Origin: Oceanospirillaceae bacterium
Lineage (GTDB): Bacteria; Pseudomonadota; Gammaproteobacteria; Pseudomonadales; Balneatricaceae
Direction of reading: 5' to 3'
DNA length: 38,937 nucleotides
Assembly (NCBI GenBank): GCA_023954795.1
Contig: JAGSHA010000003.1
Location: 1 to 38,937, forward strand
Shown here: positions 4,703-25,774 of the stretch, one piece after another
Layout of the letters: the number at the start of each line of letters is the position of its first letter
Numbering within the stretch: the stretch's first letter is position 1
Notes under the pieces: model-generated
What the model was told of the DNA's origin: nothing
The model's database searches: none
The model's input: only the letters and a program-made list of their open reading frames with translations
Program-made: the position numbers and the translations under genes

Positions 4703-5296
4703 TCAGGAGAAGGCTTTGCGCCCTAGCTCAAAGGCTTGGTGGTTCAGAGCAAGCAAAGCTTCCCCTTTGTTTTTAAAGCGGGCTGTCAGGCTGTTTTCGA
4801 TCGTACCGGCAGGAAAGGGTAAGCGATCAGAAATTGCACCCAGCATAATACTATTAACTAAACGCCGATCACCCAGATCAATTGCAGATTGTCCGGCATT
4901 GTAATCATGGGTTTCGACACCCATTTTCCTCATCTTTTCGATCGGTTCATCCGGATAATCAAATAAACCAATTGAAACAACAGGGGGTTCCTGTGCAAAG
5001 GTATTGACCATTGCCAGGCCATCACCTTTCAGGTGAGATGACCAGCGCAGTGCTTCTGCAGGTTCAAACGCCAGCATCAGATCTGCATCACCGGCTTGGA
5101 TTGCAGGCGAGTAGACCTTGGGGCCAAAGCGGACGTGGGAGGTCACGACACCGCCGCGCTGTGCCATCCCGGCCACTTCCGTTTTCTTGACGTCATAGCC
5201 CAGAGAAAGCGCGCTGGTGGCGAGAATATCGGCGGCAGTCATAACGCCCTGACCACCGATGCCGACAACGAGAATATTTGTTACTTCGTTATTCAC
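4703..5296 (-). CDS. iorB: Indolepyruvate ferredoxin oxidoreductase, beta subunit
   Basis: NILVVGIGGQGVMTAADILATSALSLGYDVKKTEVAGMAQRGGVVTSHVRFG is typical of the gamma/beta domain of 2-oxoacid oxidoreductases; overlaps iorA by 4 bp. Confidence 0.92.
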   Translation of the reverse strand: MNNEVTNILVVGIGGQGVMTAADILATSALSLGYDVKKTEVAGMAQRGGVVTSHVRFGPKVYSPAIQAGDADLMLAFEPAEALRWSSHLKGDGLAMVNTFAQEPPVVSIGLFDYPDEPIEKMRKMGVETHDYNAGQSAIDLGDRRLVNSIMLGAISDRLPFPAGTIENSLTARFKNKGEALLALNHQAFELGRKAFS

Positions 5297-7158
5297 TTGA
5301 TTTCCACCGCATCTATTTTAGTGACGTTGTAAGCCGGAATAATGGCATCCGGGGCACAAGGTTTAGTGCACAGATTACAGCCCGTGCAGGCAGCTGTATC
5401 GATGCTGACAAAGGCGAGTTCTTTCTCTTTACCATTCGGTTTTACAACGGTTTCCCGGCGATCAACCAGAATAGCCGGACAGCCGATATCCAGACAGTTG
5501 CTACAACCGGTGCATTTGTCTGCGTCGACTTTCAGCGGTGGCAGCTTGCTGTAGCGTTCGGTGAGAACACAAGGTTGGTTGGTGATGATGACTGACGGTT
5601 CAGGAACTTTGACCTCCTGTCGCAGTGCTTTAAACAGAATCGGCATCTCGTATGGATTTACTTCGTGGATACGTTCCGGTTTTACCCCCAGTGCTTCACA
5701 CAGCTTGCGGAAGTCCACTTGCATGGTTTGTTCTCCATGCAAGTTAAGGCCAGATGACGGTGCGTCCTGTCCACCCGTCATACCCACCGCACGGTTATCC
5801 AGCAGCAGAATGGTGACGTTGCCCTTGTTGTAGGTGATATCCAGCAGACCCTGCATACCCATGTGCAGGAAGGTAGAGTCACCGATGACTGCAAGCACGT
5901 TCTTGTTCTCATCGCACTCTGCGCGGCCTTTATCCAAGCCTTGGGCAACACTCAGTGAGGCACCCATGCTGATGGTGGTATCCAGTGCATTCCAAGGGTG
6001 CCCTGCGCCGAGTGTATAGCAACCAATATCGCCTGAGATGATGGTGTTCTTCACATGGGACAGGCAGTAATAGATCCCCAGATGTGGACACGCAACACAC
6101 ATGGTTGGTGGGCGAGGGAATACCTGAGCGGTCGGAATCAGCTCGCTTTCCGCAATGGCTTCCCCAATCAGTTTACTGACCGGTGGTGTAATGACTGCCG
6201 GTGACAATTCGCCAATCTTCGGCAGCAGATCCTTGCCGTAAACGTCTACACCGGCTGCACGCAGTTCGGTTTCCAGAAGCGGTTCGACTTCCTCGACCAC
6301 AACCAGCTTTTCCACATCTCCCGCGAAGGTGCGAATGCTCTCAATGGGAGCCGGGTGACTGAAACCCAGTTTAAATACCGGTGCATCAGGAAAGGATTCT
6401 TTCACGTGATAGTAAGCCGCGCCAGACGTGACAAAACCAACCCGCGTATCAGAACCTGAGTCGATACGGTTGAGTTCGGTATCGGCAGCGAAACTTTTTA
6501 ATGTTTCGTCACGTGCCATCATCATTGGAATTCGATTCTTGGCATTACCGGGAACCATGACAAAGCGCGCAGGATCTTTCTTAAATCCAGTGCCTGTATG
6601 GCTTTCAGGCTCGCTGTTAATGACGACGCCTTTAACGTGGCAGATACGCGTGGTCAGGCGAACGATGACCGGCACCTCAAACTGTTCGGAGATACCGTAG
6701 GCCGCTCGAGTCATCTCATAGGCTTCTTGCGCGTCACTGGGCTCGAGTATCGGCAGGTGAGCAAAGCGGCCCCAATAACGGGAATCTTGTTCATTCTGCG
6801 ATGATGACAAACCCACATCATCCGCGACGACGATAACCAGGCCGCCGACAGCCCCGACCAGTGTCTGAGTCATAAAAGCATCAGAGGCAACATTCATTCC
6901 TACATGCTTCATTGCACACAGAGCACGACTGCCCGCCATTGACGCACCAATTGCCACTTCCAGAGAGACTTTCTCGTTGATCGACCATTCTGAATAGATG
7001 TCGGGATACTGAGAAACATACTCAAGGATTTCAGTGGAAGGTGTGCCTGGATAAGCTGCAGCAACCTTCACACCCGCGTCGCGGGCTGCTTGGGCTATAG
7101 CTTCGTTACCAGAGATAAACTGGCGCAGATCTGCGGATCTGGGTTCGGCGGCGTTCAA
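5293..7158 (-). CDS. iorA: Indolepyruvate ferredoxin oxidoreductase, alpha subunit
   Basis: AAYPGTPSTEI, GDIGCYTLG, TPP-binding GDSTF, and C-terminal CxxC 4Fe-4S motifs (CTGCSNCLDIGCP, CTGCNLCTKPC). Start preferred at TTG 7158 because AAGGAG lies 6 nt upstream; the track extends to GTG 7200. Confidence 0.92.
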   Translation of the reverse strand: MNAAEPRSADLRQFISGNEAIAQAARDAGVKVAAAYPGTPSTEILEYVSQYPDIYSEWSINEKVSLEVAIGASMAGSRALCAMKHVGMNVASDAFMTQTLVGAVGGLVIVVADDVGLSSSQNEQDSRYWGRFAHLPILEPSDAQEAYEMTRAAYGISEQFEVPVIVRLTTRICHVKGVVINSEPESHTGTGFKKDPARFVMVPGNAKNRIPMMMARDETLKSFAADTELNRIDSGSDTRVGFVTSGAAYYHVKESFPDAPVFKLGFSHPAPIESIRTFAGDVEKLVVVEEVEPLLETELRAAGVDVYGKDLLPKIGELSPAVITPPVSKLIGEAIAESELIPTAQVFPRPPTMCVACPHLGIYYCLSHVKNTIISGDIGCYTLGAGHPWNALDTTISMGASLSVAQGLDKGRAECDENKNVLAVIGDSTFLHMGMQGLLDITYNKGNVTILLLDNRAVGMTGGQDAPSSGLNLHGEQTMQVDFRKLCEALGVKPERIHEVNPYEMPILFKALRQEVKVPEPSVIITNQPCVLTERYSKLPPLKVDADKCTGCSNCLDIGCPAILVDRRETVVKPNGKEKELAFVSIDTAACTGCNLCTKPCAPDAIIPAYNVTKIDAVEIK

Positions 7159-7431
7159 TATCGGCTCCTTGGGTGTGCTTATGATAGTTTTTTGGTGCAC
7201 ACCTATGTGAAAAATGAATCATTTCGAGCCATGTTACGCAGTTACCCATATGGGGCTTTAGATCCAGATCAAATTTTGGACAAAAGATGCATGAATTATT
7301 CTATGGTTGGAATCAGGTTTCGTATTTTTAAATATTTTGGAATTATTGTTCTTTGCTTTGTTCGTGCAAAGTAATCCCTGCCTTTGATCGTGAAAGCAAT
7401 CAGACGTTGAGATCAGAGTGTATAGAGGGGC

Positions 7432-22624: not shown

Positions 22625-22683
22625 TGATTAATTGGTCGGGCTAGTTTATGGTGCATAAGGTCATATACAAGCAGGAGTTAACA

Positions 22684-23892
22684 GTGGAAAACGTTAACAG
22701 TGCCGTTGAAACACTCATTCAGAGTTCCAACACGCTTTTCATACTGATGGGCGCCATTATGGTGTTCGCCATGCATGCCGGTTTTGCCTTTCTTGAGGTC
22801 GGAACCGTACGCCATAAGAACCAAGTGAATGCGCTGGTTAAAATCATGACTGATTTTGGTGTGTCTGCGATCGCTTATTTCTTTATCGGTTACTGGATTG
22901 CATACGATGTGACGTTCTTTCAGGATGCGGCAACGCTTGCTGAGGGTAATGGTTACCAGTTAGTTAAGTTCTTCTTTTTAATGACCTTTGCGGCAGCGAT
23001 CCCGGCTATCGTCTCCGGTGGTATTGCTGAGCGTGCTAAGTTCTGGCCGGTTCTTTTGGCGTCAGCGCTGACAGTGGCGTTTGTATACCCATTCTTTGAG
23101 GGCATGATCTGGAACGGGAATTATGGTTTTCAGGCATGGCTTGAAAGCTCGTTTGGTGCCGGATTTCATGACTTTGCTGGTTCTGTTGTTGTGCACGGTG
23201 TGGGTGGCTGGATTGCGCTTGCAGCAGTATTGCTGCTGGGTATCCGTAAAGGTCGCTATCGTAACGGCAGGCTGGTGGCGTTCCCGCCATCCAATATTCC
23301 GTTTCTGGCGCTGGGTGCCTGGATTCTGTCCATCGGTTGGTTTGGTTTCAATGTAATGTCCGCGCAAACACTGGATGGCATTTCTGGTCTGGTGGCTGTG
23401 AATACGTTAATGGCGATGGTGGGCGGTATTGTGACCGCTTTGATCGTTGGGCGTAATGACCCGGGTTTCATTCATAACGGTCCTCTAGCGGGTCTTGTGG
23501 CGGTTTGTGCAGGGTCTGATGTGATGCACCCAATTGGTGCATTGGTTGTGGGCGGTATTGCGGGTGTGATTTTTGTCTGGTTGTTTACCATTCAGCAGAA
23601 CAAGTGGAAAATCGATGATGTGCTGGGTGTGTGGCCATTGCACGGATTGTGTGGTGCCTGGGGTGGTATTGCTGCGGGAATCTTTGGTAGCGAAGCGTTG
23701 GGTGGCCTGGGTGGTGTCAGTCTGGCGTCTCAGGTGATTGGTACGGTTGCAGGTATTGCTGTTGCGCTGGTGGGTGGTTTCATCGTTTATGGTGTGATCA
23801 AGGCCCTTGTGGGTTTACGTCTGGATGAAGAGCAGGAATACAACGGTGCTGACCTTAGTATCCATAAGATCGAATCTACGTTTGTTGATTGA
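22684..23892 (+). CDS. amtB: Ammonium transporter, Amt family
   Basis: GFAFLEVGTVRHKNQVNALVKIMTDF, twin-His region FHDFAGSVVVHGVGG and VWPLHGLCGAWGG. GTG 22684 has GGAG 6 nt upstream; ATG 22648 is the alternative. Confidence 0.93.
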   Translation: MENVNSAVETLIQSSNTLFILMGAIMVFAMHAGFAFLEVGTVRHKNQVNALVKIMTDFGVSAIAYFFIGYWIAYDVTFFQDAATLAEGNGYQLVKFFFLMTFAAAIPAIVSGGIAERAKFWPVLLASALTVAFVYPFFEGMIWNGNYGFQAWLESSFGAGFHDFAGSVVVHGVGGWIALAAVLLLGIRKGRYRNGRLVAFPPSNIPFLALGAWILSIGWFGFNVMSAQTLDGISGLVAVNTLMAMVGGIVTALIVGRNDPGFIHNGPLAGLVAVCAGSDVMHPIGALVVGGIAGVIFVWLFTIQQNKWKIDDVLGVWPLHGLCGAWGGIAAGIFGSEALGGLGGVSLASQVIGTVAGIAVALVGGFIVYGVIKALVGLRLDEEQEYNGADLSIHKIESTFVD

Positions 23893-23905: not shown

Positions 23906-23945
23906 GACACAAAAAAGCCGACGTTAATGTCGGCTTTTTTGTGTC
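23906..23945. terminator. Bidirectional intrinsic terminator after amtB
   Basis: GACACAAAAAAGCCGAC-gttaat-GTCGGCTTTTTTGTGTC; 17-bp perfect arms with A/T tracts on both sides. Confidence 0.9.
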
Positions 23946-23959
23946 TGAAATATGGCTCT

Positions 23960-24376
23960 CTACATTTTAAGATGTAGCGAGTGAGAGTGTCCCTTGGGGG
24001 AGCGGTTTCGATGTCTGATAATCAGCAGTCCAAGCCCCAGGGTAATGGCTGCACAGCCTGCGTAGTGTAGCGTACTGGCTTCCGTGTGGCTTTGTAGCAG
24101 TATGCCAATAAGGATGTAGATAAATGGGATCGCTTCGTAGAGCGGTTCTGGTAGCAAAGAGGCTTCATGCCAGGGTAGATATCGATGGGGGTTCAGTGGT
24201 GTGTGCAGTGCATCTGCGCGACGGTTTTTGGAGCGCATGATCCAGATGGCTGATCCGCTACTGTAGAGAATGCCACCGGAAATCGCCTGCAGAAGATCGG
24301 TGGGGAAAATAATATTCATGGCCCCAAATACAAGGCAGAAATAGGGCAAAGACTCATAGAGAGGCTTGGGTAACAC
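23960..24376 (-). CDS. Uncharacterised small membrane protein with two duplicated modules
   Basis: VLPKPLYESLPYFCLVFGAMNIIFP...AIWIMRSKNRR and LLPEPLYEAIPFIYILIGILL...GLLIIRHRNRS. GTG 24376 has GGAG about 10 nt upstream; the track start GTG 24460 lies inside the gltA terminator hairpin. Confidence 0.65.
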   Translation of the reverse strand: MLPKPLYESLPYFCLVFGAMNIIFPTDLLQAISGGILYSSGSAIWIMRSKNRRADALHTPLNPHRYLPWHEASLLPEPLYEAIPFIYILIGILLQSHTEASTLHYAGCAAITLGLGLLIIRHRNRSPKGHSHSLHLKM

Positions 24377-24447
24377 GGGTGGAGATCTCCATACAGCATA
24401 CAGGTATATAAGCGAGCCGTAAGTGTAGGAGAGAATTATAAAAAAGC

Positions 24448-24480
24448 ACAAAAAAGCCACCGCAAGGGTGGCTTTTTTTG
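24448..24480 (-). terminator. Intrinsic terminator of gltA
   Basis: GCCACC-gcaag-GGTGGC flanked by A and T tracts, directly downstream of the gltA stop. Confidence 0.88.
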
Positions 24481-24496: not shown

Positions 24497-25774
24497 TTAT
24501 TCAGGATAGTCGCGTTTGCTTGGGCCAGTGTAAAGCTGGCGTGGGCGACCGATCTTGTTCGGGCTGCTGTGGAACTCGCTCCAGTGAGAGATCCAGCCGA
24601 TAGTACGGGACAACGCGAAGATCACTGTAAACATAGTGGTAGGAATGCCAATTGCTTTCAGGATGATGCCGGAGTAGAAGTCTACGTTCGGGTACAGTTT
24701 ACGCTGTACGAAGTAATCATCTTCCAGTGCGATCTGTTCCAGGCGCTTAGCAATTTTTAGCAATGGATCGTCGTCGATACCCAGTTCGTGCAACACTTCG
24801 TCACAAGTCTTCTTCATGACCTTAGCGCGAGGGTCGAAGTTGCGGTATACGCGGTGACCAAAGCCCATCAGGCGGAAAGAATCGTTAGGATCCTTCGCAC
24901 GTGCTACGAATTCTTCAATCTTGGATTCATCGCCGATCTCTTCCAGCATTTTCAGTACAGCTTCGTTAGCGCCGCCGTGAGCTGGTCCCCACAGTGCGGC
25001 AATACCGGAAGCGATACATGCGAATGGGTTAGCGCCGGAGGAGCCTGCCAGACGTACGGTAGAAGTGGACGCATTTTGCTCGTGATCAGCATGAAGCAGG
25101 AAGATCTTGTCCATCGCTTTCGCCAGAACCGGGCTAGGCTTGTACTCTGCGCAAGGCGTGCCGAACATCATGTGCAGGAAGTTTTCTGCATAGCTCAGAT
25201 CGTTGCGAGGGTACTGGAACGGCTGGCCGATGGAGTACTTGTAGCACATTGCCGCAATGGTTGGCATTTTCGCTACCAGGCGGTATGCGCAGACTTCGCG
25301 GTGGTGAGCGTCGTCGATATCCAGAGAGTCGTGGTAGAAGGCAGACAGTGCACCTACACAAGCAACCATGATCGCCATCGGGTGGGCATCGCGACGGAAA
25401 CCGTTGAAGAAGTGGTTCATCTGCTCGTGAACCATAGTGTGGTTCTTAACGATATTGACGAACTTTTCTTTTTCTTCAGGGGTTGGCAGTTCGCCGTTCA
25501 GAAGCAAATAGCACACTTCCAGGTAGTCAGAGTGTTCTGCCAGTTGTTCGATCGGGTAACCGCCGTGTAAGAGCACACCTGCACCACCGTCAATGTATGT
25601 GATTTTAGATTCACATGCAGCAGTAGATACAAAACCTGGGTCATAAGTGAAGCGGCCGCTGCCAGTCAGAGGGCGCACATCAACTACGTCAGGGCCTTCT
25701 GTGCCTGTATAGACAGGGAGTTCGATTGCTTCATCCAGACCATCGATGGTCAAACGTGCTTTCTTATCAGCCAT
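24497..25774 (-). CDS. gltA: Citrate synthase (type II)
   Basis: [85 protein letters not shown]. Confidence 0.98.

Follow-up and report, generated by a model that had tools for sequence, protein, structure and literature searches.

A small gammaproteobacterial membrane protein with a duplicated two-helix hairpin, encoded between amtB and gltA

The locus and the gene model

The window analysed here, a stretch of 38,937 nucleotides from an Oceanospirillaceae bacterium, contains a short minus-strand gene that lies between an ammonium transporter gene and the citrate synthase gene gltA. The features of this part of the window, including the segments of the encoded protein, are as follows.

22648..23892, plus strand: ammonium transporter (amt/amtB type), convergent neighbour (PF00909, E=2.9e-92)
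23906..23945, minus strand: nearly palindromic terminator, 14 nt after the stop (17-bp stem, -28.8 kcal/mol, z -11.2)
23960..24376, minus strand: two-module membrane protein gene, GTG start, 138 aa, stop included in the coordinates
23963..23995, minus strand: short C-terminal tail with histidines (..GHSHSLHLKM), predicted to be disordered from sequence and pLDDT
23996..24154, minus strand: module 2, LPEPLYEAIPF ... LLIIRHRNRS, predicted TM hairpin 2 (module HMM E=3.3e-10)
24155..24211, minus strand: predicted cytoplasmic linker between the modules, poorly conserved (omega 0.48 vs 0.18 in module 1)
24212..24373, minus strand: module 1, LPKPLYESLPY ... WIMRSKNRRAD, predicted TM hairpin 1 (module HMM E=3.7e-22)
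24385..24390, minus strand: probable ribosome-binding site GGAGAT, read from the sequence, with GGAG 10 nt from the GTG
24422..24451, minus strand: candidate own promoter, TTGTGC-18 nt-TACACT, with hexamers and spacing shared by three Pontibacterium-group loci
24450..24478, minus strand: gltA terminator
24497..25774, minus strand: citrate synthase gltA, upstream neighbour on the same strand (TIGR01798, 774.6 bits)

The initial annotation placed an open reading frame at 23960-24460, which corresponds to the 166-aa minus-strand frame listed for the window (24460..23960). The gene and its strand are real, but its start is not the one given. Codon comparison with Pontibacterium sinense yielded an omega of 0.02, with 15 synonymous and 1 non-synonymous differences over 138 codons, and comparison with a more distant Marinobacterium-like relative yielded 0.19, rather than the Ka/Ks near 1 that the initial annotation had named as evidence against a conserved gene. 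The two-module gene is thus kept under strong purifying selection. In the first 28 codons of the longer frame, on the other hand, all 7 differences from P. sinense are non-synonymous and 0 are synonymous, and the matching stretch of the Marinobacterium-like relative contains two TAG stops. Most homologues begin at MLPxPLYE or very near it and have no counterpart of the 28-residue N-terminal extension. On these sequence comparisons, the true start is GTG 24376 and the product has 138 aa. GTG 24460, which lies inside the stem of the gltA terminator, was rejected as a start and the first 28 codons as non-coding.

The GGAGAT ahead of the GTG is also found at the loci of P. sinense and the Marinobacterium-like relative. 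The candidate promoter would give the gene its own transcription start, and its -35 hexamer overlaps the T-tail of the gltA terminator. The terminator that follows the gene probably serves the convergent amtB as well, and the two-module gene looks like a monocistronic unit.

The duplicated module and its predicted structure

The duplication of a unit of about 50 aa, on which the initial annotation was based, is borne out. The two units, 73 residues apart, align without gaps over 51 residues with a score of 61, which was reached by none of 5000 plain shuffles and by one of 5000 shuffles that kept the hydrophobic pattern, and alignment of a profile of all first modules with a profile of all second modules gave an hhalign probability of 100. 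As judged from these alignments, the internal duplication is genuine. An AlphaFold2 model of the protein (pLDDT 79.2, pTM 0.71), for which a 12-sequence alignment served as input, contains four helices, at residues 3-22 and 27-56 in module 1 and 76-96 and 100-124 in module 2, i.e., two predicted hairpins, in agreement with the duplicated two-TM module proposed earlier. The pLDDT is 51-75 at residues 51-80, the linker region, and below 50 at residues 127-137. A fold search of the PDB with this model returned no match below E 0.28, and viral models likewise gave none.

Conservation was assessed in an alignment of 49 modules, in which Y6, P10, R47 and R51 are 100% conserved and E7 98%. These positions make up a near-invariant Y-E-x-x-P before TM1 and R-x3-R after TM2, all near the predicted cytoplasmic ends of the helices. 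Among the 49 modules there is no conserved charged residue inside the TM segments, where only glycines are conserved. Lysine and arginine are concentrated on the C-terminal side of TM2, and the loop joining TM1 to TM2 has an acidic or neutral character, so that the positive-inside rule suggests an N-in/C-in topology with both hairpins parallel. An even number of TMs per repeat keeps the orientation, and the repeat is therefore expected to be parallel, following the logic by which two-TM repeats give a parallel and not an inverted arrangement (PMC3962082). Pseudo-symmetry of the two modules is plausible. The protein resembles parallel-duplicated hairpin membrane proteins in carrying two homologous two-TM units in one chain with the same expected orientation, but differs from them in having no sequence or fold match to a solved example and no conserved core charge.

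A family with one-module, two-module and cargo-bearing forms

The initial annotation recognised no characterised family, and indeed searches of Pfam, NCBIfam, PHROGs, PADLOC and PDB sequences yielded no significant match to the protein. A plasmid search gave no match, and no text mentioning the LPKPLYE motif was found in the literature collection searched. Module 1 of several members weakly matches the hydrophobic part of DUF6232 (PF19744, E 0.003-0.6), but always below the 27.4-bit cut-off and over only 35-45 hydrophobic residues. By these searches, the protein belongs to an undescribed, unnamed family of small membrane domains without an entry in Pfam, NCBIfam or PHROGs. We define it here as the LPxPLYExLP hairpin family, with a module of ~54 residues to which both halves of the window protein belong.

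To delimit the family, an anchored motif scan of ~85,000 species genomes was combined with HMM searches of whole genomes; two loci from the anchored DNA pattern scan (L020 and L032) proved unrelated. At a threshold of E 1e-3, the HMM matched 30 of 117 genomes belonging to the window's family. One of these matches (L064, E 3e-4), which resembles a segment of a larger EamA-type transporter, is probably spurious and was left out of the membership. At E 1e-5, matches were obtained in 30 of the 369 gammaproteobacterial genomes sampled (8%, the window's own genome included), and a phylum-wide sample contained the hairpin family only in Gammaproteobacteria. The homologues are spread over about 25 families, a distribution that is real but patchy.

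The survey of one-module and two-module homologues proposed in the initial annotation shows that both forms exist. One-module proteins of 55-115 aa occur in Contendobacter, Competibacteraceae, Andreprevotia, Rhodocyclaceae and others, and two-module proteins were found in Pontibacterium, Marinobacterium-like bacteria, Motiliproteus, Neptunomonas, Aeromonas diversa and Thalassotalea. Across 37 distinct two-module proteins, the two halves carry different signatures: first modules have Y11 (32/37), W44 (35/37), S48 (32/37) and R52 (35/37), and second modules have F11 (36/37). The window protein shows this two-module signature with W44, S48, R52 and F84, the last corresponding to position 11 of module 2. 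Such differing signatures fit one old duplication followed by specialisation of the halves. These module-specific residues were used for the duplication question in place of a module tree, which is unresolved at ~58 residues and in which a small number of first modules from two-module proteins are labelled as single. Genomes of the Motiliproteus group contain 4-12 module matches each. Tandem pairs of two-module genes, giving four modules in a row, occur in Motiliproteus (L034 2923-3846) and in a Neptunomonas-labelled MAG (L027 3835-4837).

A minority of family members carry cargo domains. In three Competibacteraceae-type relatives, one module is joined to 5-6 Sel1 repeats (PF08238, E 3.5e-43 to 8.5e-52; L014 2755-3720, L022 6033-6998, L026 785-1663), and a gyrB-like gene lies tail-to-tail with two of these three fusion genes. 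Sel1 repeats were seen only in these three loci; the window protein has no Pfam match to them, and what it has in common with these Sel1-repeat proteins is the membrane hairpin. Two-module proteins of Motiliproteus carry a tail with the pattern C-x2-C-x5-C-x59-C, at identical spacing in six of six sequences (L015 436-1167, L029 2112-2798, L030 6399-7082, L124 1001-1732, L126 1420-2244, L127 1444-2139). Because the first three cysteines match the spacing in RseC, the tail by analogy suggests a predicted cytoplasmic metal or Fe-S site. The predicted fold of one four-cysteine relative has an all-helical tail of low confidence (pLDDT 68, pTM 0.41), and a fold search with this model gave no match. 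A CRP/FNR-type regulator gene lies directly downstream of the four-cysteine gene on the same strand at two loci from Motiliproteus-group genomes, L029 (2862-3557, identified by PF00027 and HTH_Crp_2) and L127 (499-1188, judged by eye).

Possible roles of the hairpin

The reading that we favour, tentatively and with less than even confidence, is that the window encodes a small inner-membrane protein with two tandem hairpins, in which the hairpin is a membrane anchor or assembly unit and the protein acts as a scaffold or accessory subunit. Both hairpins would be inserted alike, leaving the N-terminus, the linker and the C-terminus in the cytoplasm. One-module members would pair as homo-oligomers, and two-module members would represent fused pairs whose halves have specialised. 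At the cytoplasmic face, Y-E-x-x-P where helix 1 begins and R-x3-R where helix 2 ends may clamp the hairpin, presumably by a salt bridge from E7 to R47/R51, and the conserved residues on this face could serve for docking. The hairpin of some relatives would carry a cytoplasmic cargo, either Sel1 repeats or the four-cysteine domain. Since the window protein lacks such cargo, it would most likely be a small accessory or scaffold subunit for a partner membrane protein or complex. An anchor or scaffold is preferred over a transporter because the invariant residues lie on the cytoplasmic side and no charge is conserved in the membrane. It should be noted that some observations count against an anchor or scaffold, namely that only a minority of members have cargo and that presence is patchy (8% of the sampled genomes, and five relatives lacking the gene at amtB-gltA). 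The lack of a constant neighbour, described below, is what a stand-alone accessory protein would show but also counts against a scaffold, since scaffolds often have conserved genomic neighbours.

The position of the gene might instead point to a role dedicated to its neighbours, with the protein acting as partner or regulator of the ammonium transporter or controlling how citrate synthase is expressed, and so linking nitrogen and the TCA cycle. Pfam and NCBIfam confirm both neighbours, as named in the initial annotation, and the order amtB > < gene < gltA is conserved in two genera, being kept in three of five genomes of the window's genus (the Pontibacterium group) and in ~11 of the second genus. 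However, in five relatives the space between the facing amtB and gltA lacks the gene, the homologue is placed away from amtB-gltA in four genomes of the second genus and also in Motiliproteus and other lineages, and the gene has its own candidate promoter and terminator. In Motiliproteus the gene sits between prfC and a TatD-type gene, and other sites include one beside gyrB (the Sel1 forms) and one in a leu operon (neighbours identified by eye unless searched). Among the loci compared, no neighbour is constant across lineages. Since the gene is dispensable in five relatives and sits elsewhere in other lineages, the amtB-gltA placement is probably no functional clue for nitrogen or the TCA cycle, and a dedicated link to either neighbour is very unlikely. 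Even less probable is a metal-binding or metal-handling role of the histidine-containing tail: such tails (GHSHSLHLKM, KSHHTKHIDM, HKHTDNRHTHKHFHM) are found in Pontibacterium, Marinobacterium and Andreprevotia members, but in most homologues the tail is missing or unrelated, and it is predicted to be disordered. A small pseudo-symmetric transporter or channel, with the two hairpins forming a translocation path, is implied by the term 'pseudo-symmetric membrane protein' in the initial annotation and would account for an internal duplication with four predicted helices in a membrane protein, and internal pseudo-symmetry is frequent in transporters (PMC3962082). This role is disfavoured, and we regard it as distinctly unlikely. 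The TM segments contain no conserved polar or charged residue, the near-invariant residues being at the cytoplasmic face only; by the logic cited above, two-TM repeats are parallel and not inverted; there is no structural match to a solved transporter; and the one-module and Sel1-fused members do not fit.

RseC, of the SoxR-reducing system, is the closest working analogue. It has two TM helices with both termini in the cytoplasm, and its CX2CX5C motif is the binding site of an Fe-S cluster sensitive to O2 (PMC11729352). The family could by analogy descend distantly from the hairpin of RseC and anchor a membrane redox complex (Rsx/Rnf-like) by two TMs in N-in/C-in topology, the Motiliproteus forms having retained the Fe-S domain. 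Sub-threshold Pfam matches to positions 72-119 of RseC_MucC, its hairpin, recur with E 0.0015-0.008, and the Y-x-x-P before TM1 is also present in the RseC hairpins of related genomes. The predicted topology is alike, the C-x2-C-x5-C spacing is shared by the Motiliproteus tails only and not by the window protein, and the two four-cysteine genes upstream of CRP/FNR-type regulators also fit this reading. However, the ORF (16.6 bits) and the best relative (18.9 bits) both fall below the RseC_MucC cut-off of 24.4 bits (PF04246), and the hhalign probability of 40.6 for the module against the RseC profile (score 20.7) was reached by one of 100 hydrophobicity-preserving column shuffles. The window protein has two hairpins, and its 138 aa do not include the N-terminal CX2CX5C cytoplasmic domain that the RseC proteins of related genomes have. 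A separate true RseC is encoded in the window's genome (L113), and the gene lies between amtB and gltA, not in an rpoE-rseABC operon. Membership in RseC_MucC was rejected on the scores, the missing cysteine domain and the genome's own RseC, and we consider descent from RseC unlikely, although less so than a transporter.

A broader proposal, which we regard as unlikely, is that the hairpin is a general gammaproteobacterial tether for interchangeable cytoplasmic effector or sensor domains. In Motiliproteus the tethered domain, with its four cysteines and possibly an Fe-S site, would then sense redox state or NO together with the adjacent CRP/FNR-type regulator, and the bare two-module forms, the window protein among them, would be an assembly platform for such partners. 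If tethering is true, the cargo-bearing relatives, with Sel1 repeats or with the four-cysteine domain next to a CRP/FNR-type regulator, are entry points to function. If it is false, a correct gene model and a family are still provided for small ORFs annotated as hypothetical or mis-started. Moreover, the coexistence of one- and two-module forms offers a compact natural case of a hairpin oligomer becoming a fused pseudo-dimer with specialised halves. The initial interpretation was thus broadly right and is partly supported; what the comparison adds is a family with one-module, two-module and cargo-bearing forms.

Several minor observations were made at related loci and elsewhere in the window. 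In a congener (G002, L130 2779-3251), one of the five relatives without the gene at this site, the amtB-gltA spacer contains a possible decayed remnant of module 2, ..PEPLS*ALPFIHIF.. (HMM E 0.25). In three genera of one family (L070, L075, L082), one-module genes precede a NUDIX-like gene that has the same orientation, and a glycerate-kinase-like gene is close by. On the minus strand of the window, two ORFs at 4703-7200, of which the larger contains POR_N and TPP_enzyme_C domains, together resemble a 2-oxoacid:ferredoxin (indolepyruvate-type) oxidoreductase.
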